A DNA stretch of 64,000 bases from Amyelois transitella (lineage: Eukaryota; Arthropoda; Insecta; Lepidoptera; Pyralidae), in assembly GCF_032362555.1 (NCBI RefSeq), contig NC_083523.1, forward strand, positions 9,337,501 to 9,401,500, given 5' to 3'. The notes under the pieces are model-generated. The model searched no databases. It was not told the origin of the DNA and worked only from the letters and a program-made list of their open reading frames with translations. Positions 24,501 through 34,862 of this stretch are shown one piece after another. A program made the position numbers and the translations under genes. Positions within the stretch are counted from its first letter, which is position 1. Every line of letters begins with the position of its first letter.

Positions 24501-27500
24501 TTACTAATCAATTTCGCTCGTCAGGTAGAGAGATATCTGCTGGGCCCCTCGTCTCAGGTGAGCCAGAGCAGCGCCCAGCTCAACAATCAGCCGCCGCTGT
24601 CTGCGCTCGCCTCTATATGTCAGGTGAATATAATGTGAACATAGTTTAGTTCTGCGCCGTGTGGTTCCCGGCACCAATACAAAAAAAGAATAGGACCACT
24701 CCCATCTCTTTCTCATGGATGTCGTAAAGGCGTAGGCTTACAAACTTGGGATTCTTTTTAGGCGTTGGGTTAGGTTAGGATAGGTTAGCAACCCCGCAAG
24801 GGATATAGACGTGACCATATGTATGTATGTATATATTCTAAATAGGATAAAAGGTAGGCAATAGATGAATCTACACAAGATATGAATACTAATTGATATT
24901 ATTAACGTGAAAAGTTAGTTTATTTATTTGTAAGCTTTTCAAGGATTATCTATTGAATTAATCTTCTTGAAATATAAAGTACCTATGTATCATTAGGAGT
25001 CTGGAGAAGGACATAGGGTAACTTTCATATGGGTAAAAGCTATAGTTTTTTTTTAAACCTGTATTCTTTTGTAAGTGGCGCTAAATTCGTCGCTTTTTGT
25101 AGATGGCGCTAAGCGGGTAATAAATTATCTGCATATTGTTTTTATTAATTATTAAAAGTCGATTTTGGAAATGTTACAGCATATAATATTATGATGTGTG
25201 AGTTCCCGCTAAAAAGTAGTGACAACTTTTCCGCGATAAGATTGATCGCTTTATGTTTCCTCACGCGTTTTACTCCATATATTTCTCATGAGTATCGTAA
25301 AAGGGATATAGACGTGACTATTATGTATGTATGATAGGCCTCTTAAATGATTGTGCATTTTTGGCTTGATGTTGACGTAAGTTTTATCTTTATTTATTTG
25401 ACGAAATATTCGTATTGAAATCGTTAGTTTTACATTCATTCATGTTTTTTAACGTAGACAATGTGCATTCGTCCACGATTTAGATTTAAGACATCTATAT
25501 TTGTCAATTGACACATAAATATATATAGTCACGTCTATAACCCTTGCGGGCTAGACAGAGCCAACAGTCTTGAAAAGACTGACAGGCCACGTTCGGCTTT
25601 TTGGCTCGATGATAGAATTGAGATTCAAATAGTGAGAGGTTGCTAGTTCATCGCCTATAATAAGAATCCCAAGTTTATAAGCCTATCTCTTAGTCGCCTT
25701 ATACGATATCCATGGGAACGAGATGGAGTGGTCCTATTTTTTATATTGGGGCTGGGAACCACACAGCACATTGTAAATTGACGTCCGGTGAAAATGCCGC
25801 AGTGTAGTTTGTTCCGCCGCTTCTTGTACACATGCGCTTTGGAAGCGGTAGTAGTTATGATTAGATTGAAGTGATGCGACGTCTATAAGTAATACCTTGT
25901 GAAAATAAATGTATCGTATTGTATCGTGGTTTTATGTATGAATTTATGTATGTATTAGTCTAAGAGCTAGTGAACTCTCCGAGTAATGGTGTTAATCGGA
26001 GAGTTTACTAGCTCTCCAACTATATGTTTGTATGTGTGTGTATGTCGCCGCGGCAGGCGTGGAGCGGCGGTTAGTCTAGGAGCTAGTGAACCCTCCTAGT
26101 AACTGTGTTCACTAGCTCTCCAACTATGTGTGTATGTGTGCGCGGCAGGCGTGGAGCGGCGGTTAGTCTAAGAGCTAGTGAACCCTCCTAGTAACGGTGT
26201 TCACTAGCTCTCCAACTATATGTGTGTATCGTATGGTGCCGCGCAGGAGTGGAGCGGCGGTTAGTCTAAGAGCTAGTGAACCCTCCGAGCTCTCCAACTA
26301 CATGTGTGTGTGTATGTCGCCGCGCAGGCGTGGAGCGGCGGTTAGTCTAAGAGCTAGTGAACACTCCGAGCTCTCCAACTATATGTGTGTGTGCGCGTGC
26401 GCAGGCGTGGAGCGGCGGTTAGTCTAAGAGCTAGTGAACACTCCGAGCTCTCCAACTATATGTGTGTGTGCGCGTGCGCAGGCGTGGAGCGGCGGTTAGT
26501 CTAAGAGCTAGCGAACCCTCCGAGCTCTCCAACTATATGTGTGTGTATGCGTGTGCGCAGGCGTGGAGCGGCGGTTAGTCTAAGAGCTAGCGAACCCTCC
26601 GAGCTCTCCAACTATATGTGTGTGTATGCGTGTGCGCAGGCGTGGAGCGGCGGTTAGTCTAAGAGCTAGCGAACCCTCCGAGCTCTCCAACTATATGTGT
26701 GTGTATGCGTGTGCGCAGGCGTGGAGCGGCGGTTAGTCTAAGAGCTAGCGAACCCTCCGAGCTCTCCAACTATATGTGTGTGTATGCGTGTGCGCAGGCG
26801 TGGAGCGGCGGTTAGTCTAAGAGCTAGCGAACCCTCCGAGCTCTCCAACTATATGTGTGTGTATGCGTGTGCGCAGGCGTGGAGCGGCGGGCAGGGCTGC
26901 GCGCGGCCGGCGCGCGCGGGCGCGGGCGCGGCCGTGGCGGCGCTGGGCGAGCTCAGCCCCGGCGGCGCGCTCATGCGGCACCACGCGGCCGCTAGCATGG
27001 CGCGTGAGTATGCTTCCGCGCCCCACAGATGGCGCTGTGCGGTTTTAGAACGCGCTATGGGGATTTTTACTGGCGAAGTTATATAGATAAATGCGATACC
27101 GTGTCTAGAGAATAAGCTGCCACCCACCCCAACCCCCTGGTGGTCCAGGCCGCAAACTACACACCAAGACCAGACGCCCCGTTGCGCCGCCGACGCCCGA
27201 GGAGTGTCCTCCACGATCCGGACGACCCCATCACGGTTGCCAACCGCCCCCCCGATAACCCTGCGCCCGCCAGGAGGCAAGGTTATCGATACCGTCCCCA
27301 TCGCGCCCACCGGAACAGGGCGCGAAGAAGTAGGAACAGTAGCTCTTTTTCCAGGTACCGCAATGTACCAGGGCGCTTCACGCCGACACGTTAGGCCCCT
27401 AAGGCAGGCTAGTCAAGATTAGAACCCATAAGGTTGAGCGTTGCATCCGCTCGCGAGTTTGCATTGCTCGCATTGCTCAAAGGCAAAGTCCAAGGCCGAG

Positions 27501-30500
27501 GTTCGTCCCAACTGGGAGCCCCTTGCGCGCTTTTGCCGAAAAGGCTGTTAGGAGGAGCGTCAAGCCCTCGCCTAAAAACGTCCCGCTGTAATAGTGAATG
27601 CCCCTCAGGCAAATTATGTTCTCATAGCCAAAAAAAAAACCGTGTCTTGACCTGGTGTTTTATTTAAGGTTGTCTCTGATTGGAAAACCTTGTGTTTACA
27701 TATATTTATACTAGCGACCCGCCCCGACTTCGCACGGGTGCAAAATAATAAATGTTATTATACATAAAAACCTTCCTCTTGAATCAATTTACCTGTTACA
27801 AAAAACCGCATCAAAATCCGTTGCGTAATTTTAAAGATTTAAGCATACAGACAAACAGACTAAAATAGCGACTTTGTTTTATACTATATAGTACTAGCTT
27901 TCCGCCCGCGGCTTCGCCCACGTGTAATTCGGTTATATATAGCGTTTTTTAATGATCTCGACAGGGCTTTTTCTTCCACAGGCTGAAATCTTGTTACAAC
28001 TGGAATTAAATATAGCCTGTGTTACTCAGGGATGATGTAGCTTTCTAATGGTGAATGTTTGAAATCGATTCAGTAGTTTCGGAGTTTATCGATTACATGT
28101 GTAAACAAACAAACATATAAAAAAATAGAGGGAAATCAAGGGCAAACCTCAAATTTACAGGCAATTACGTTTTTGACAATTTCATAGATCTGTTTAAGTA
28201 TTTGCGTCTGATAGTCATCATCCCATGTGAATGAGCTGATGATGGAAGGTACAACTCCTCAACGGTTAGGAGTTGAAAGAAAATTCTTACGAAGTTATAC
28301 GTACATGTGAGGCTATTAGGTTGACCTGATAATAAAAAGTAAATCTCATTAACGTTAAGAATTTAGGTGAAAATGGATGCGGACAAATTTCATCTCTTCA
28401 CTTGTTTCCTTTTAGCTGTTTGTATGGGTAGTGTTAACACAAAATAGGGATTTAAAGGCGTAATGTTATTAATGTTATGCATGTATGTACATAATTATGT
28501 ATGTTAAAGAGACGACTGAAAGTTGTCATACAAAGTCTTTTTTTTTAAGGATGGGAAATCATCAAATGACCTCTCCCGCTCTGGGTGGAACGGAAGGGAG
28601 TGTCAGACTTTTACTGACTAAAACCCACCTCGTTCCTTCAGTTGCCCTTTGCGTTCCGGGGCCACGGTATCTCGTTAGAACTTTCCCGCAGCCCCGGCTC
28701 AGTTTATCCCGTTTCCCCCCCTTGGGGGTTGACATTTCAAAAATCCCTTCTTAGTGCTCACTTTTGTTACTAAAGGAACCTCTGTTCAAAATCTCAGACT
28801 CCTATACCGAGCGGTTTCGGCTGTGCGTTAATAAATCAGTCACCCAATCGCACCCCCTAAATCACGATTGGAGGGTAGTTTGAAAAAACTTATAATGTCA
28901 AACATATTTACTTGCCTATGTACGTGTTCATGCCAAGTTTCAAGTTTATAAACCCAAGGAATAAGATTTTTCATAGAAACGTTTTTACCCCTTTTCCCCC
29001 CCTTGGGGGTTGAATTTCCAAAAATCCTTTCTTAGTGCTCCCCTACATATCCCAAGGAACCTACATTCCAAATTTCAGCTGTCTACGACCAGTAGTTTCG
29101 ACTGTGCGTTGTCTGTCAGTCAGTCACTCAGTAACGGAAGAGTTTTATATATATAGATAGTATAGTACTTAGTATACATATGTCGCGCGAGCTACACCGC
29201 CTCTACTTATCGTGCGGGGAGTTGCTGCGGGGTCTTGTAAAGACTGATAGACTACAGTCTTTTTAAGACTGTTGTCCCTGTCTACCCCGCAAGAGATATA
29301 GATGTGATTATATGTATGTACTAGCTTTCCCCCGCGACTCCGTCCGCGCGGATGTCGGTCTTCGCGTAGATGGTTTATTTCTCCATTTTATTTTCAGTCC
29401 GGTCAATTTAGACCAAAAAATAGGAATGAAGCTACATTAATTCCCTTCAAGCTGAAAATGAGTATAATTGTTTAAAACACAATCAAAAGCATTATTTCAA
29501 AATTCCCCATGATTCCGGTTTAAGGAAAAAAATTACCCAAGGTCAAAGGTAAGAAAATGGGATTTTCACGATTTTCTTCAAAACGGTAAGTTTTATAGGA
29601 AAATTACCTCAGACATAGATTGTAGATCATAAAGATATCTATAAAAAGGAATCAATATTTTTTTTCAATAAAGCTACCGTTTCTGAGATATTACCATGCA
29701 AAAAGTTGCAAGCGTCATAATATGCATAAGCACGTCTCGTATATACTCTATGTAGCAGTAATATAAGTAAAAATATTGTTCTGTCGGTAATTTTAACTTG
29801 AATTCAAAATATAAAATATACATAAGTATAATGAAACCCAGTCCCTTCATTTATACTGTAGTGAAACCTTGAGACAACATCTGTCTCTCTGTTTAATTGT
29901 GTACGTGGCTAGGGTCGTATAGCTGCTTTATCTCAGAATGCTCAACACATGAAATACCGTTAGTCTTTAATAATAGTTGTCCTTGCGGGGATACCGTTGT
30001 CGGCTATGGACACCACGGCCTCTCATGCCCTAGGAGTGCCGGCCGTTTAGGGCGCCATGCCGCCCTAAATGATACAATCCTCCGTGCTCTTGCCACCATC
30101 CATGTTCCAGCCGTTCTAGAACCAAACGGTCTGGCTCGGGATGATGCCAAGAGACCGGATGGTATGACTTTGGTACCCTGGAGATTGGGGCGGCCTTTGG
30201 TGTGGGATGCTACTTGTGTCGACACACTTGCGCCGTCTCATCTTCAGGTTACTAAACCTAAGGCCGTTCTGATTCAAATGAGGCAAAAAACCACAAAAGG
30301 CGCAAATATGTAGTTATCGGGATCAAAGTTTACAACAGATGGCAAGTGTGATAGTGATATTGAAAGGAGAGTGAACGCGGGGAACATGGTGAATGGAGCT
30401 TTGCATGCCTTTATGAGCAGTCAGAAACTATCCAAACAGGCTCGACTGGCGGTGCACAGGGGCGTGTTGGTCCCGACATTAATGTATGGGAGTGAAAGTT

Positions 30501-33500
30501 GGGTATGGCAAAAGAAGCACGAAAGCAGAATAAATGCAGTGGAAATGAGAGCGTTAAGGAGTATGTTGGGTGTGAAATTGAGTGACCGGATAAGGAACAG
30601 TGTGATAAGGGAATGTTGTGATGTGAAAGAAGATGTAGTTACAGGAATAGAAAAGGGTATGTTGAGATGGTTCGGTCATGTGGAGAGGATGAATGAAAAC
30701 AGGTTGACTAAGCAGATATACATGGAGAGTGTGGAGGGAAAGGTCGGGGTGGGAAGACCTAGACGAACATATCTTGATCAAATTAAGGACGTCCTGGTAA
30801 AGGGTCAGGTCAAAAGTACCCGAAACCGCCGAGCTTGCATGAAGAGAGTTATGAATGTAGATGAAGCAAAGGAAGTATGCAGGGATCGTGGCAAGTGGAA
30901 AGAGGTAGTCTCTGCCTACCCCTCCGGGAAAGAGGCGTGATTTTATGTATGTATGTATGTAGTTATCGGTAATATCTATACTTTTGAACCTTTTGGGGTA
31001 GAAACTCTGGGACCGGGGGGCCTATCTGCCCATCAGCTTTTCCGACAATTGTCTAAAAAGCTAATTGAGGTATCTCTTGACCGGAGGGCTGGAAATTATC
31101 TGGCTCAGAGAATCAGCATTGCCATTCGAATTGGCAATGCGGCCAGCCTACTGGGCACATTCCCGCATGTTGATGCTATGCAAGGACTGTACAATTTATA
31201 AATTAAATTTTAGTTTGTAGTCATCTTTTTTCTTTCTTTTTATAAGTAGTTTTAGTTTTAATTTGATTATTGCATTGAATTTGATAATTATAATCTCTAT
31301 TATTGTCCTAAGATGATTTTCTTCACTTAGGGTTATTCTATTTTTTTAAATAATAAATGCGAAAGTTAGTCTTGAGTGCCACTGCGTAGTGAAAACACGT
31401 GTTTATTTTAACCTATTTCAGACTTTTTCAAGTTTAATAATAAAAATTTAAAAAAAAAACGCGCTAATAGTACACTACCTCAGAGGTGAGAAGGAAACGG
31501 ATGCATATTATGACGCTTGCAACTTTTTGCATCGTTATATCACAGAAACGGTAGCTTTGTTGAAAAAAATTATTGATACCTTTTTTATAGATAACTTTAT
31601 GATCTACAATTTATGTCTGAGGTAATTTTCCGATTTGAAAAACTTACCGTTTTAAAGAAAATTGCGATACACCCATTTTTTACCTTTGACCGTGAGTAAT
31701 TTTTTTTCCTTAAACCGGAATCATGGGGAATTTTGAAATAATGCTTTTGATTGTGTTTTAAATAATTATACTCATTTTCAGCTTGATTGGAATTAATGTA
31801 GCTATGAAGTATTTTTTTCATAGTAATTAGTAGCGGCCCGCTTGTGCAGCAAACGGTTCAAGCCAAAGCCGACTTTAGGCGCTACAGGTTACGGCGCTAA
31901 ATCCACTGCGGGTAACGCAACGTGTGTTCGCGGTTCTACAGAACAACGTCTATGTATAAACTGAAAAATTAAGATTTTTTTTTTCTTAGTATTTTTTCGG
32001 GATAAAAAGTATCCTATTTTACGCCCAGGATAATAAGGTATAATTATACCAAGTTTCATCAAAATCGAACCGTTAGTTTTCACGTGATGCCTGAACATAC
32101 AGACAGACAGACAAAAATTTTTTTAATCACATTTTTGTGTTTGGTATCGATCCAGTAACACCCCCTGCTATTTATTTTTTCAATATTTTCAATGTACAGA
32201 ATTGACCTTTCTACAGATTTATTATATGTATAGAAGATTTATCGCTCCGTCCAGAACTGATCCCCCCGGACGTGTCGCGCGAACTACACCGCCTCTACCT
32301 ATCCTGCGGGGAGTTACTGTGGAGTAGACAGAGCCAACAGTCTTGTAAAGACTGATAGGCTACAGTCTTTACAACACTGTTGCCTCTGTCTACCCCGCAA
32401 GGGATATAGACGTGACCATATGTATGTATGTATGTGGTACTTAGTAGCCATGTTACGAGAATTCGATTCGTATGTATTAGTACTCTCTACCCAAGGGATA
32501 TAGACGTGACCATATGTATTTCCCACTCCGTTCAGAACTAATCCCCCCGGACGTGTCTCGCGAATTACACCGCCTCTACCTATCGTGCGGGGAGCTGCTC
32601 CGCTCGCTGTGGCGCGCGCTGCCGCCGCCCGGCGCGGCCGAGGACGGCGCGCGCGCAGCTCTCTTCTACGAGGCGCTGCTGCGGTTCCGCAACGTCAAGC
32701 TGAGGCCTTTCGAGGTTGGTTTATTTATTTAAACTTTAATGCACAAAAAACAAAAATGTACAAAAGGCGGACTTAATGCCGTTTGGCATTCTCTACCAGT
32801 CAACCAGCTGACCAAACAGAAAAAACTTTTGGTTGGTGGTGCGATAAAGTGCACATGCATAGGTACTGACAAAATACATACATTACAAAAAAAATGCGTA
32901 AATACATACAAGATATACATACATAATATACACTATAAATACATATACATACATAAAATATATCATTAATCTGCCGAAGAAAGAACCCCTTCACAGCATG
33001 TTTGAACGCAGAGCGACTAGGAGCTCTCCTAATCATTTCAGGAAGAGCATTTCAGAGCCTTATAGCCTGAACCTGGAAAGATTTCTCCAAAAAAGTAGAC
33101 AGAGGAGTACGCAAAGTCAGGTTGTCTGAAGAGCGAAGAGAACGGGAATGGGTGGAACTCAGAAGCGGGAATTTAGATTTTAAGTAAAGAGGAGAGTGAG
33201 CATCATTGAGTAGAGAGTACAACAAACAAAGAATTGGATTTGGTTGTGGATGATGTATACAACTGCCGTGGTGTATAACTAAAATGCCGTTATCTGATTT
33301 ACATCAGGATTTTTCACCTTTTTTACCAGTAGTAGCGAAGGAAATATGCAGAGATCGTGGTGGATAGAGGTAGTCTCTGCCTACCCCTCCGGGGAAGAGG
33401 CGTGATTTTACGTATACATACATAAATACATATGATCCGTCTTTATCCCTTACGGGGTAGACAGAGCCAACAGTCTTGAAAAGACTGATAGGCCACGTTT

Positions 33501-34492
33501 TTATGTATGTATGTATGTTTACTAGTAGAATAAGAAAAAAATCTCTTTCGATCTGTATGTATATATACGACTTTTTGGTACCTTTAAGTCATGAATAGGC
33601 GTTCTCATTGATGAATGGCATCAGTTTAAATTTTTTACCGCATTTCTGACGTTTTACTTAAAACAAGGATTTGGCAGATAACGGCATTTTAGTTATGCCA
33701 GGGCAGCAGAATAGAATAGAATAAATTTATTTTCAAAATTGGATACAAGGTATCACTTATTGACGTCACATAACTTAAATCTAATTATAACTACTAGTAT
33801 AGGTATAGGTATCTGTGTGTGTGTATGTGCCGGCGCCGATAGAGAAGAGGATAGCTCCATGTGTTTCCCGTGGATGTTGTTAGAGGAGACTAAGGGATGG
33901 GATTATTTTTTTTTCATTATTAGAGGATACTTCATATCGCTTGATAATTGTGAAATCTTTTGGTTTCACAACATTGGTTGACGTCAAATAAATTACTTAA
34001 ATCTAATAAGTTTACTGCCGCTTCCAAGGCATCAGTGCAGAAGAAGCGGTAACAAAGCACTGTAGCATTTATTTTTCTTATATAATTGGGATTCCACTTT
34101 TAGGCGATGGGCTGGCAACCTGTCACTGTTTGAATGTCAATTTTAATGCATTAAGCCAGGTGGCTGAACTTGGCCTTTTAGTCTTTGATGACTGTTGACT
34201 CTGTCTACCCGTAGGGGATGGAGACGTGATTATATGCTACGACGGAGTCGAAAAACATCTACTAATATAATCCAAACAGAAAGTCGGTTCAGTAACAGAA
34301 TCAGGTTGCTAGTGAATGCCCTTCATCAAAATGAAATATCTAACTCGACAATCGTCTTATTATCTACAGGAGAAAATGCTACGCGATTTGACACCGTTAG
34401 CGGCGACACTCACCCGCCATTTGAATCAAATGATAGACACGGCATGCAACAAATACGCGATGTGGCAACAGAGGCACGCCAAACTCAGGTAG
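15571..34492 (+). CDS. GTF2H1: TFIIH core subunit p62 (GTF2H1/Tfb1), 11 coding exons
   Basis: Exons: 15571-15724, 17042-17243, 18384-18520, 19294-19495, 20256-20361, 21355-21480, 22671-22904, 24525-24623, 26877-27003, 32536-32714, 34370-34492. All have GT/AG ends and compatible phases. The product is 562 residues (human p62 is 548). It begins [20 protein letters not shown]. Residues 1-~108 form the PH-like domain (HKYADIK... [10 protein letters not shown]); BSD domains are at about 120-160 (SSEEYWNT) and 170-232 ([14 protein letters not shown]); the C-terminal half includes ELSPGGALM and [20 protein letters not shown]. p62 is a structural subunit of TFIIH, used in transcription initiation and nucleotide excision repair, and contacts activators, TFIIE and XPC/XPG-type partners. 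Exon 7 encodes an Asn-rich run. The final exon ends HAKLR-stop; the stop overlaps an unused GT. Introns 8-9 and the 3' flank contain duplicated exon edges. Confidence 0.96.
16325..16562 (+). repeat. SINE-A copy, GTF2H1 intron 1
   Basis: Complete copy with TGGTGCAGCGGTAATACGC and box B GGTTCGAATTCC (one change). Confidence 0.88.
16563..16765 (-). mobile_element. Helitron-like/MITE repeat
   Basis: Starts CTAGAGGCCGCCCGCGACTT, contains GTAATCGGTTCAGTAGTTTT, and ends CTTTATAATAGTAGTAGGAT. It resembles the reversed CTAG-ending Helitrons elsewhere in the window but with a different body. Confidence 0.5.
17276..17775 (+). mobile_element. RTE LINE, 5'-truncated, in GTF2H1 intron 2
   Basis: Encodes the last ~133 residues of the RTE ORF, from [20 protein letters not shown] to YPSGKEA-stop, followed by GTGATTTT and (ATGT)n. 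It is flanked by a 12-bp target duplication TTGCTAAAGGTT (17276-17287 and 17764-17775). About 40 AT-rich filler bases precede the LINE sequence. It lies 32 bases after the exon 2 donor. Confidence 0.9.
17992..18195 (-). repeat. SINE-B copy, decayed, GTF2H1 intron 2
   Basis: Reversed; the tail side (ATAGTCATGTCTACATCC) is diverged and the head is lost. Confidence 0.75.
18773..19002 (-). repeat. SINE-A copy, GTF2H1 intron 3
   Basis: Full length, reversed; the T-arm is mutated to GGATTCGGGACCC, which breaks the TTCGA core of box B. Confidence 0.85.
19031..19270 (+). repeat. SINE-B copy ending 23 bp before exon 4
   Basis: Lacks its first ~25 bases. The tail TATGTATGTATGTA is followed by only ACAGTTTTAACCAAATTTCC before the CAG acceptor of exon 4. 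Confidence 0.87.
19500..19860 (+). repeat. Two consecutive SINE-B copies after exon 4
   Basis: The first copy (19500-19598) is 5'-truncated and begins within 5 bases of the exon 4 donor; the second (19599-19860) is full length. With the copy at 19031, exon 4 is bracketed by SINE-B at under 25 bases on each side. Confidence 0.85.
20088..20250 (+). repeat. SINE-C copy abutting exon 5
   Basis: Contains AATAGATTTATTTTCAAAAT, TGACGTCACAAC, GCCGCTTCCAAAGCGC and AGAAGTAGCGGCGGAAC. The same words recur at 23355, 25772, 33715 and 54935. Orientation is arbitrary. The exon 5 acceptor follows directly. Confidence 0.6.
20380..20616 (-). repeat. SINE-A copy, GTF2H1 intron 5
   Basis: Full length, reversed, starting about 20 bases after the exon 5 donor. 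Confidence 0.87.
20617..20880 (-). repeat. SINE-B copy, GTF2H1 intron 5
   Basis: Full length, reversed; directly abuts the SINE-A head on its left. Confidence 0.88.
20905..21066 (-). repeat. SINE-B copy, 5'-truncated
   Basis: Reversed copy keeping only the 3' ~160 bases. Confidence 0.85.
21073..21332 (-). mobile_element. RTE LINE 3' fragment, GTF2H1 intron 5
   Basis: Last 69 codons of the RTE ORF on the minus strand with a CATA-repeat tail. It is flanked by a 10-bp target duplication TATCACATAC (21073-21082 and 21323-21332). It ends 22 bases before exon 6. Confidence 0.9.
21506..21713 (+). mobile_element. Non-autonomous Helitron copy
   Basis: Starts TCTATACTAACATTATAAAG and ends with the hairpin GCGGACGAAGTCGC followed by a degenerate CTRR end. 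Confidence 0.75.
21708..21940 (-). repeat. SINE-A copy, GTF2H1 intron 6
   Basis: Reversed full copy joined to the Helitron 3' end. Confidence 0.86.
22160..22262 (-). repeat. SINE-A copy, 5'-truncated
   Basis: Only the tail half, without the tRNA-like head. Confidence 0.8.
22279..22660 (+). repeat. SINE-B full copy plus truncated second copy before exon 7
   Basis: 22279-22540 is full length; 22550-22655 is a 5'-truncated copy in the same direction whose TATG-type tail ends about 16 bases before the exon 7 acceptor at 22670. Confidence 0.87.
22942..23310 (+). repeat. SINE-B full copy plus truncated copy, intron 7
   Basis: 22942-23212 is full length and starts 38 bases after the exon 7 donor; 23215-23310 is a diverged truncated copy. 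Confidence 0.85.
23355..23560. repeat. SINE-C copy, intron 7
   Basis: Carries TTGGATAATTGTGAAGTTGA, GCGGCAGTAAA and GACGTCAACCAATGTTATGA, shared almost word for word with 54935-55155. Confidence 0.6.
23905..24168 (-). mobile_element. Non-autonomous Helitron copy, intron 7
   Basis: Reversed: CTAGCTGTGCCCGCGACTCC at the left with the terminal hairpin, and AATATTAGTAT at the right. Confidence 0.8.
24232..24492 (+). repeat. SINE-B copy ending 32 bp before exon 8
   Basis: Full length with an intact GTGCCGTGTGGTTCCCGGCA head. Confidence 0.9.
24654..24832 (+). repeat. SINE-B copy with internal deletion, intron 8
   Basis: Head and tail are present; about 90 internal bases are missing. Starts 31 bases after the exon 8 donor. 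Confidence 0.85.
25520..25770 (-). repeat. SINE-B copy, intron 8
   Basis: Full length, reversed, moderately diverged. Confidence 0.86.
25772..25920. repeat. SINE-C-like copy, intron 8
   Basis: Contains TTGACGTCCGGTGAA and GCGCTTTGGAAGCGGTAGTA. Confidence 0.5.
25957..26890 (+). repeat. Minisatellite made of the exon 9 splice-acceptor region
   Basis: Eleven AG|G-type junctions sharing CAGGCGTGGAGCGGCGG (one has AGTGGAG). Exon-like starts: 26057, 26149, 26247, 26328, 26405, 26482, 26561, 26640, 26719, 26798, and the true exon 9 start at 26877. Spacing falls from 92-98 bp (distal) to 77 and then exactly 79 bp for the five junctions nearest the exon. Each unit is acceptor, 14 exon bases, TTAGTCTAAGAGCTAG, then GAGCTCTCCAACTATATGTG and a GT-rich run. 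In the long distal units GAGCTAGTGAAC and GTTCACTAGCTC form an inverted repeat that the short units have lost. Confidence 0.95.
27105..27640 (+). mobile_element. GC-rich retro-inserted fragment, intron 9
   Basis: A 500-base GC-rich block ending in an A-run (about 27630-27638). A short frame reads [20 protein letters not shown], but no known domain is visible. The A-tail suggests reverse transcription; the family is unknown. Confidence 0.4.
27708..28140 (-). mobile_element. Two adjacent CTAG-type repeats
   Basis: 27710-27893 starts CTAGCGACCCGCCCCGACTT and is the same family as 43170-43366. 27894-28140 starts CTAGCTTTCCGCCCGCGGCT and ends in a distinct body. Both have the Helitron-like reversed end. 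Confidence 0.5.
28540..29160 (+). repeat. Composite repeat, intron 9
   Basis: 28545-28690 (GATGGGAAATCATCAAATGA... GGGAGTGTCAGACTTTTACT) looks like a very common lepidopteran interspersed repeat. It continues into a block holding two copies of CCCCCCTTGGGGGTTGA (near 28715 and 28998), each followed by AAAATCC and CTTAGTGCTC. Confidence 0.5.
29181..29230 (+). pseudogene. Partial copy A of GTF2H1 exon 10
   Basis: Fifty bases encoding [16 protein letters not shown] in frame, the same peptide as residues of true exon 10, with seven synonymous third- or first-base differences and no splice acceptor left. A SINE-B fold-back follows at once. Confidence 0.85.
29231..29322. repeat. SINE-B tail fold-back after copy A
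   Basis: Short inverted CTTGTAAAGACTGATAG / CAGTCTTTTTAAGACTG structure, then the plus-strand SINE-B 3' end. The same junction follows exon copy B at 32320. Confidence 0.75.
29897..31201 (+). pseudogene. Retroelement-type CCHC/PD-D nuclease-like ORF, split by a LINE
   Basis: Part 1 (29897-30313) has C-x-C-G at [17 protein letters not shown] (a CCHC-like knuckle), [21 protein letters not shown] and VWDATCVD. Part 2 (30953-31201) continues [14 protein letters not shown] and [20 protein letters not shown]. The two halves join across an RTE insertion with TSD TAGTTATCGG and one frame slip in an A-run. The pattern (CCHC then RPD...D-x-T) resembles the restriction-like endonuclease end of RLE-type non-LTR elements; similar ORFs are common in invertebrate genomes. 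No reverse transcriptase is visible upstream. Function is inferred and the gene is dead. Confidence 0.6.
30311..30969 (+). mobile_element. RTE LINE 3' part nested in nuclease-like ORF
   Basis: About 189 codons of the RTE C-terminus ([20 protein letters not shown] to YPSGKEA-stop) and an (ATGT)n tail, flanked by the duplication TAGTTATCGG (30311-30320 and 30960-30969). Confidence 0.92.
31830..32160. repeat. Unclassified dispersed-type repeat
   Basis: Starts AGCGGCCCGCTTGTGCAGCA and contains AAGTTTCATCAAAATCGAAC and CATACAGACAGACAGACAAA, typical of short lepidopteran non-autonomous elements. Confidence 0.4.
32241..32322 (+). pseudogene. Partial copy B of GTF2H1 exon 10 with splice acceptor
   Basis: An acceptor CTCCGTCCAG (true exon: CTCCGTTCAG) is followed from 32255 by the first ~65 bases of exon 10. 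The in-frame peptide [22 protein letters not shown] is identical to true exon 10; all six base differences are synonymous. It then runs into a SINE-B fold-back and a stop. Confidence 0.9.
32320..32436. repeat. SINE-B fold-back after copy B
   Basis: GTAGACAGAGCCAACAGTCT inverted against AACACTGTTGCCTCTGTCTA; ends GACGTGACCATATGTATG. A further short SINE-B tail (32490-32519) leads directly to exon 10. Confidence 0.8.
32722..33260 (-). mobile_element. LINE-like 3' region, reverse, intron 10
   Basis: Starts 8 bases after the exon 10 donor. Contains AAAGGCGGACTTAATGCC, CTCTACCAGTCAACCAG and a long antisense stretch with no open frame. Longest copy of the family also at 8347 and 35655. Confidence 0.6.
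33325..33500. mobile_element. RTE tail (+) joined to SINE-B tail (-)
   Basis: 33330-33412 is a plus-strand RTE 3' end (GGTAGTCTCTGCCTACCCCT); 33417-33500 is a minus-strand SINE-B 3' end. They meet head to head at their microsatellite tails. Confidence 0.75.
33715..34072. repeat. SINE-C copy, interrupted, intron 10
   Basis: GAATAGAATAAATTTATTTT at the left and GGTTTCACAACATTGGTTGA ... AGAAGCGGTAACAAAG at the right, with other sequence between. Confidence 0.5.
34086..34236 (+). repeat. SINE-B 3' half, intron 10
   Basis: Diverged copy from AGGCGATGGGCTGGCAAC to GGAGACGTGATTATATG, 130 bases before exon 11. Confidence 0.75.
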
Positions 34493-34745
34493 TACCCGCC
34501 CATAAACAATGTAGACTTGACATAGACAATCGTGATGAACATTTGTGGTTTATTGTTGTGCAGTTGAAATGATGCTAATGTGCGAAATAATGCGTTCTGG
34601 CGCGAAGATATTTGATTTTTTGTGAGTTGAAGTGAATTATACTTGAAATCCCTTATATTCCATAGACAATTCGGTTGATAAGACATTGTAATTGTTAATT
34701 ATTTGTTAACATAATTGAAAAAATACGCTTTGAATCATTTATACC

Positions 34746-34862
34746 AAATGATGGATAAGGCGTGCAACAAATACGCGATGTGGCAATAGAGGTACGCCAA
34801 ACTCAGGTAAAACACGCCCATAACCAATGTAGACGTCACATAGACAATCGTGATGAACATTT
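34746..34862 (+). pseudogene. Duplicate of the 3' edge of GTF2H1 exon 11
   Basis: Matches 34428-34545 (last ~62 coding bases, stop, and ~55 bases of 3' UTR). The peptide is [10 protein letters not shown] followed by an internal TAG, so it is not usable as a terminal exon. A third, more decayed copy lies at about 36008-36060. Confidence 0.85.

Follow-up and report, generated by a model that had tools for sequence, protein, structure and literature searches.

The structures that resemble the present array most closely appear, by analogy of form, to be the amphioxus mirages, minisatellite-like tandem duplications of an intron-exon boundary in Adh3 and in the globin genes BflGb6 and BflGb9. Mirages are reported to be variable in length, RT-PCR suggested normal splicing with no interference, and their origin was stated as unclear (PMC3087553). 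In the same text, the BflGb6 mirage duplicates the 3' end of an intron together with the start of the exon, carries splice signals in many units and has been homogenised internally, as is also the case for the array in GTF2H1, while mirage units measure 150–160 bp in the globins or 10–72 bp in Adh3. In contrast to the mirages as presented in that source, the GTF2H1 array has an identified seed at a transposon end, ten decoy acceptors, a stop codon provided by the transposon and a host that is not a cephalochordate. The visible transposon seed is what is new in comparison with the known mirages.

In human genes that lie in segmental duplications, variable internal tandem repeats, likewise in the form of minisatellites, occur at exon-intron boundaries and can alter splicing. 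These repeats belong to recent paralogues in segmental duplications, half of them lie in coding exons and some form new introns (PMC2812944), whereas GTF2H1 showed no paralogue among the matches listed and has its acceptor copies inside the intron. Satellites and minisatellites derived from MITEs or other elements with terminal inverted repeats (TIRs), in which the element seeds the tandem repeats as in the GTF2H1 array, are covered by a review (PMC9659126); the GTF2H1 unit differs from them in that it also takes in a splice acceptor together with intron and exon sequence of the host. Introners, many families of which have TIRs and target-site duplications, supply splice signals (PMC9860276). 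Unlike these, the GTF2H1 element is not in an exon, has made no new intron, is found in this form at a single locus and offers only donor-like sites at its junctions. Identity with an introner was considered and rejected, the element being located between exons 8 and 9 and its tandem form being found, within the spacings and end spellings searched, only at the GTF2H1 locus. Partial parallels are provided by intron gain through tandem duplication (PMC3443670) and by a worm minisatellite near alternative exons (PMC4039745). No transposon-seeded boundary minisatellite was found among the matches listed in the open-licence literature.

The window, that is, the whole 64-kb stretch analysed here (C19:9337501-9401500), belongs to a genome of 327 Mb in 33 contigs, which was the genome searched. 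GTF2H1, encoding the p62 subunit of TFIIH, is located on the + strand from 15571 to about 34492. Its exons were placed by tblastn, using human p62 as query, and the resulting 11-exon model has GT..AG borders in all ten introns and a frame that stays open. The 562-aa model product contains the Pfam domains PH_TFIIH (E 3.3e-22) and BSD (E 4.2e-21), and exons 1–2 match solved human p62 chains with an E value of 8.6e-34; on its sequence, the gene is a complete GTF2H1/p62. The genome search returned 13 matches among those listed, all in C19:9353071-9372307, and neither a second copy nor a retrocopy bearing the mature junction was found among them. Since the 13 listed matches fall at one locus, no paralogue is seen that could cover the loss of the correct product.

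Exon 8 (24525..24623, + strand) was defined by the gene model and ends with SICQ at 24623, at the donor CAG|GTGAAT. Exon 9 (26877..27003, + strand; 127 nt, donor CGC|GTGAGT) was placed by the frame and by alignment of LSPGGALM, a segment common to human p62. Taken alone, exon 9 gave an E value of 1.3 in tblastn against human p62, and no p62 chain was found when it was compared with solved structures; its placement is therefore based on the SPGGALM match and the frame. The trypsin-like matches obtained in the latter comparison (best E 0.67) were weak and were set aside as compositional noise.

A minisatellite of 11 units (25955..26890, + strand) runs into the start of this exon, each unit consisting of a transposon remnant, the 3' end of the intron with its CAG, and the first 14 bases of exon 9. 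The tandem array itself is real, as direct observation confirmed. Its units are arranged head to tail with lengths of 116, 92, 98, 81, 77 and 77 bp followed by five of 79 bp, and the junctions are spaced by 92, 98, 81, 77, 77, 79, 79, 79, 79 and 79 bp. Tandem Repeats Finder (TRF) independently called a period of 79 with 8.7 copies, 96% matches and a score of 1183 at 26206-26890, as well as an older 92-bp part at 26035-26367. The 12-mer GTGGAGCGGCGG occurs 11 times within the 64-kb window, always in the array. Units 7–11 are identical to each other, as are units 5–6, while units 1–4 have diverged, with a mutual difference of 6–16% over ungapped columns. In a TRF background of 39 records and 229,122 bases, partly overlapping and enriched for the transposon family of the array, no other array with a period of at least 30 and at least 3 copies was found.

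Much of this had been anticipated by the earlier note, which placed the ten decoy junctions and the one at 26877 exactly where they are found, and described a unit with the exon 9 acceptor and the first 14 exon bases, both copied in the ten decoys. The last five spacings bear out its 79-bp distance for the five junctions nearest the exon, and the identity of units 7–11 agrees with its proposal of a recent homogenisation that took in the real splice site. Its array, correctly extended to 26890, has to be moved at the other end from 25957 to 25955, and its account of the unit, right as to acceptor and exon bases, missed the transposon remnant that sets the unit boundary and gives the stop codon.

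Judging from nucleotide similarity, the left part of every unit is what remains of a DNA transposon that is dispersed in the genome. Unit 1 contains the founder remnant (25956..26022, + strand), which is 67 bp long and internally deleted, and retains both TIR ends, with 36 of 38 bases on the left and 25 of 27 on the right identical to the family. It is flanked by a TAT target-site duplication, at 25953..25955 on the left and 26023..26025 on the right (+ strand), which has the 3-bp length typical of the family, and its TIRs are common to the dispersed family copies. All remnant copies start with TAGTCTA and end with CTCTCCAACTA, their length being 67 bp in unit 1, 55 bp in units 2–3 and 39 bp in units 4–11. 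The founder remnant stops 34 nt short of the exon boundary of unit 1, and in each unit exon base +14 is followed directly by T-TAGTCTA, which puts the left breakpoint 1 nt outside the transposon 5' end. An exact-end genome search for the 67-bp form gave two matches, both in the array; this form therefore seems to have arisen by deletion on the spot, and descent from a dispersed miniature family was rejected.

The left edge of the array (roughly its first 40–50 bases) recurs in at least 29 other places in the genome. The left end of the family is TAGTCTAAGAGCTAGTGAACCCTCCGAGTAACGG, with TAGCC in many copies, the right end is ..GTTCACTAGCTCTCCAACTA or CAGCTA in the aligned copies, and the TIR core has 64 exact genome matches, 32 per strand. 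Seven examined copies measure 2.1–3.8 kb, with inverted repeats of 439–510 bp in six of them and, in the seventh (L045), of 214 bp together with a displaced piece. Across 15 pairs, paired copies span from about 180 bp to 3.8 kb, and exact 3-bp target-site duplications accompany all but one (L022). By using the end spelling of the array itself, a right end followed by a left end at a spacing of 30–60 was found nine times in the genome, each time in the array, and exact-end patterns at spacings of 0–30 or 61–91 gave no genome match; for the spacings and spellings covered, the idea that the element tends in general to build tandem arrays was rejected. No significant Pfam match to a superfamily transposase, with Academ and PIF/Harbinger considered, was found in the two ORF fragments scanned, and one family ORF fragment may resemble Academ-type proteins. 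A search for relatives in viral contigs gave 94 pattern matches, none of them confirmed. The copies L040, L044, L046 and L047 have inverted repeats of about 440 bp and carry 3-bp duplications as well as ORF fragments, and the L040 fragment contains ..TGCDFNPSFLRRGKKRPFKLL... Right ends with an identical 12-base flank are found 4.7 kb apart in L046 (positions 738 and 5471), which suggests a local duplication.

The array is likely to be a transposon-seeded, mirage-type minisatellite across the intron-exon boundary, probably tolerated and without a regulatory role. It would have started from a short, internally deleted copy of the long-inverted-repeat DNA transposon in intron 8, 34 nt before exon 9, after which the stretch from the transposon 5' end to exon base +14 would have been duplicated in tandem, probably triggered by a break, or by fork stalling, where the palindromic element ends. 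The element core would later have shortened from 67 to 55 and then to 39 bp, a series that is seen in the units and whose order in time is presumed, and the exon-proximal units, again in a presumed order, would have expanded and been homogenised together with the true acceptor.

With a breakpoint 1 nt outside the transposon 5' end, the first duplication is located at this end, and such proximity could be the coincidence of a single event. Palindromes and UG tracts are prone to slippage. Unit 1 holds both a long palindrome and a UG tract, and an ordinary minisatellite might have been produced there by replication slippage, with the transposon remnant as a mere passenger; transposase cleavage, in turn, is not demonstrable from one genome. 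However, the boundary between units is not in the UG tract but 1 nt beyond the transposon 5' terminus, and this explanation appears somewhat doubtful. As for the first duplication itself, a transposase cut, a palindrome-stalled fork or simple slippage may have been the cause.

The position of the array relative to the exon is subject to a second alternative, in which exon 9 begins at an in-frame CAG, GGGCAG|GGC, whose first following bases are 26895..26897 (+ strand). This site is 18 nt downstream of 26877, just outside the array, and preserves the frame; furthermore, in the alignment with human p62 nothing clearly corresponds to AWSGGQ. Use of this CAG as the main acceptor would leave the whole array inside the intron, and the 14 supposed exon bases with it. 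However, 26895 has 4 pyrimidines in 17 upstream positions and an AG-free stretch of 8 nt, whereas the corresponding values are 8 of 17 and 34 nt at 26877, whose AG is also met first; a start of exon 9 at 26895 is unlikely. The exonic nature of the first 14 bases depends on the use of 26877, which is the likely acceptor. With exon 9 starting there, the repeats span the intron-exon boundary of a real gene as in the mirages, with splice signals retained in many units (CAG in all ten decoys, and the next 14 bases in nine of them) and a concerted evolution that excludes edge units, here at the upstream edge only.

The ten decoys, each given from its junction to its stop on the + strand, are found at 26057..26074, 26149..26166, 26247..26264, 26328..26345, 26405..26422, 26482..26499, 26561..26578, 26640..26657, 26719..26736 and 26798..26815. 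All ten reach a stop in phase 0, through AWSGG in nine cases, in accordance with the earlier note, and through EWSGG in the third decoy (26247), which that note had read as AWSGG too. From the model exon lengths and the 562-aa product, a decoy product of 425 residues was derived, with 137 residues lost where about 140 had been estimated. The acceptors 26561, 26640, 26719, 26798 and 26877 share the same sequence across the 23-nt splice-site window, and the identity of the four decoys with the true site extends upstream for 87, 166, 245 and 324 nt, respectively. The acceptor at 26877 has 8 pyrimidines in its 17 upstream positions (9–13 in the other nine acceptors of the gene) and 8 G (0–4 in the others). 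As the acceptor poorest in pyrimidines and richest in G, it could face more competition from decoys of equal strength than was assumed.

The stop codon TAG of the decoys corresponds to the first three bases of the transposon, which would be read after five codons whenever a decoy is used. An exon running from a decoy to the real donor would have 206–947 nt, against 127 nt for true exon 9, and the stop would then be 367–1108 nt upstream of the last junction, a distance at which decay is expected; nonsense-mediated decay (NMD) should remove the decoy-spliced transcripts. The nearest decoys are probably spliced to in some cases, while the true site would probably be chosen mainly because it alone borders an exon of normal size that has a sequence of its own and, at 127 nt, a donor. 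The array would in this way be mostly tolerated, probably with no regulatory role.

The same outcome might be put to use, as the earlier note supposed, if the number of decoys, which might vary between individuals, set the share of messages lost to NMD and the array acted as a regulatory device that tunes p62 dosage. Four of the ten decoys are locally identical to the true acceptor, all ten reach a stop at least 367 nt before the last junction, no second gene copy was seen among the matches listed, and the acceptor at 26877 is weak and UG-rich. Against this, the 14 exon-derived bases show no clear excess of conservation over the remainder of the unit (1 of 14 columns variable versus 16 of 65), and the amphioxus mirages were reported without interference in splicing (PMC3087553); a dosage role is quite unlikely. 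Silencing through the UG tract and TDP-43 was also considered and set aside.

A more elaborate proposal, which we consider very unlikely, takes each unit as an intron-like module of 64–85 nt, so that the array would form ten miniature introns in a ladder, their number shifting by unequal exchange and setting the share of productive message of a general transcription factor. Such a module would consist of a donor-like site made of exon bases and the transposon 5' end, a branch region provided by the transposon 3' end, and the captured acceptor. Each of the ten decoys is followed, 13 nt after its AG, by a donor-like GCG|GTTAGT (for example, GTTAGT at 26811..26816, + strand), with 64–85 nt to the next acceptor. 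This site agrees with 6 of 9 positions of the donor consensus, the score also obtained by seven of the ten real GTF2H1 donors, the rest scoring 5, 7 and 7. Weak donor-like sites are common, 12 of them scoring at least 6 in 24625-25950. Finally, an assembly artefact is exceedingly improbable: five identical 79-bp units are easily mis-counted, and the draft-genome version of one amphioxus mirage is reported to appear aberrantly assembled (PMC3087553), but units 1–4 bear distinct indels and substitutions and the whole array occupies less than 1 kb inside a 9.9-Mb contig.

In GTF2H1, the seed and the breakpoint of a boundary minisatellite can be read directly, and both point to a transposon end. 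A transposon located beside an acceptor can, by this route, multiply the acceptor without moving again. The locus also represents a natural experiment on splice-site choice, with five locally identical acceptors 79 nt apart of which only one leads to the full protein, in a gene for a core transcription factor of which the listed matches show no second copy. The choice among the five, and its cause, would tell the effect of local splice-site strength apart from that of exon context.

Other duplicates of GTF2H1 sequence were noted in the window. A truncated duplicate comprising the acceptor and the beginning of exon 10 (32237..32325, + strand; 89.6% identity over 77 nt to 32518-32594) has its junction at 32255, retains its own acceptor and continues in frame into a dispersed repeat with a stop, which makes it a putative second kind of decoy in this gene. 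Another truncated duplicate of exon 10 is found at 29181-29229, and the stretch 32492-32519, repeated at 32398-32425, ends 16 nt upstream of the real exon 10. At 34736-34862 there is an 88% duplicate, with a stop in frame, of 34418-34544, which comprises the end of exon 11 and the sequence downstream of it. The core of the dispersed repeat, TAGACAGAGCCAACAGTCTT, occurs 18 times in forward and 21 times in reverse orientation in the 64 kb with up to 3 mismatches, for example at 25552 and 32325.
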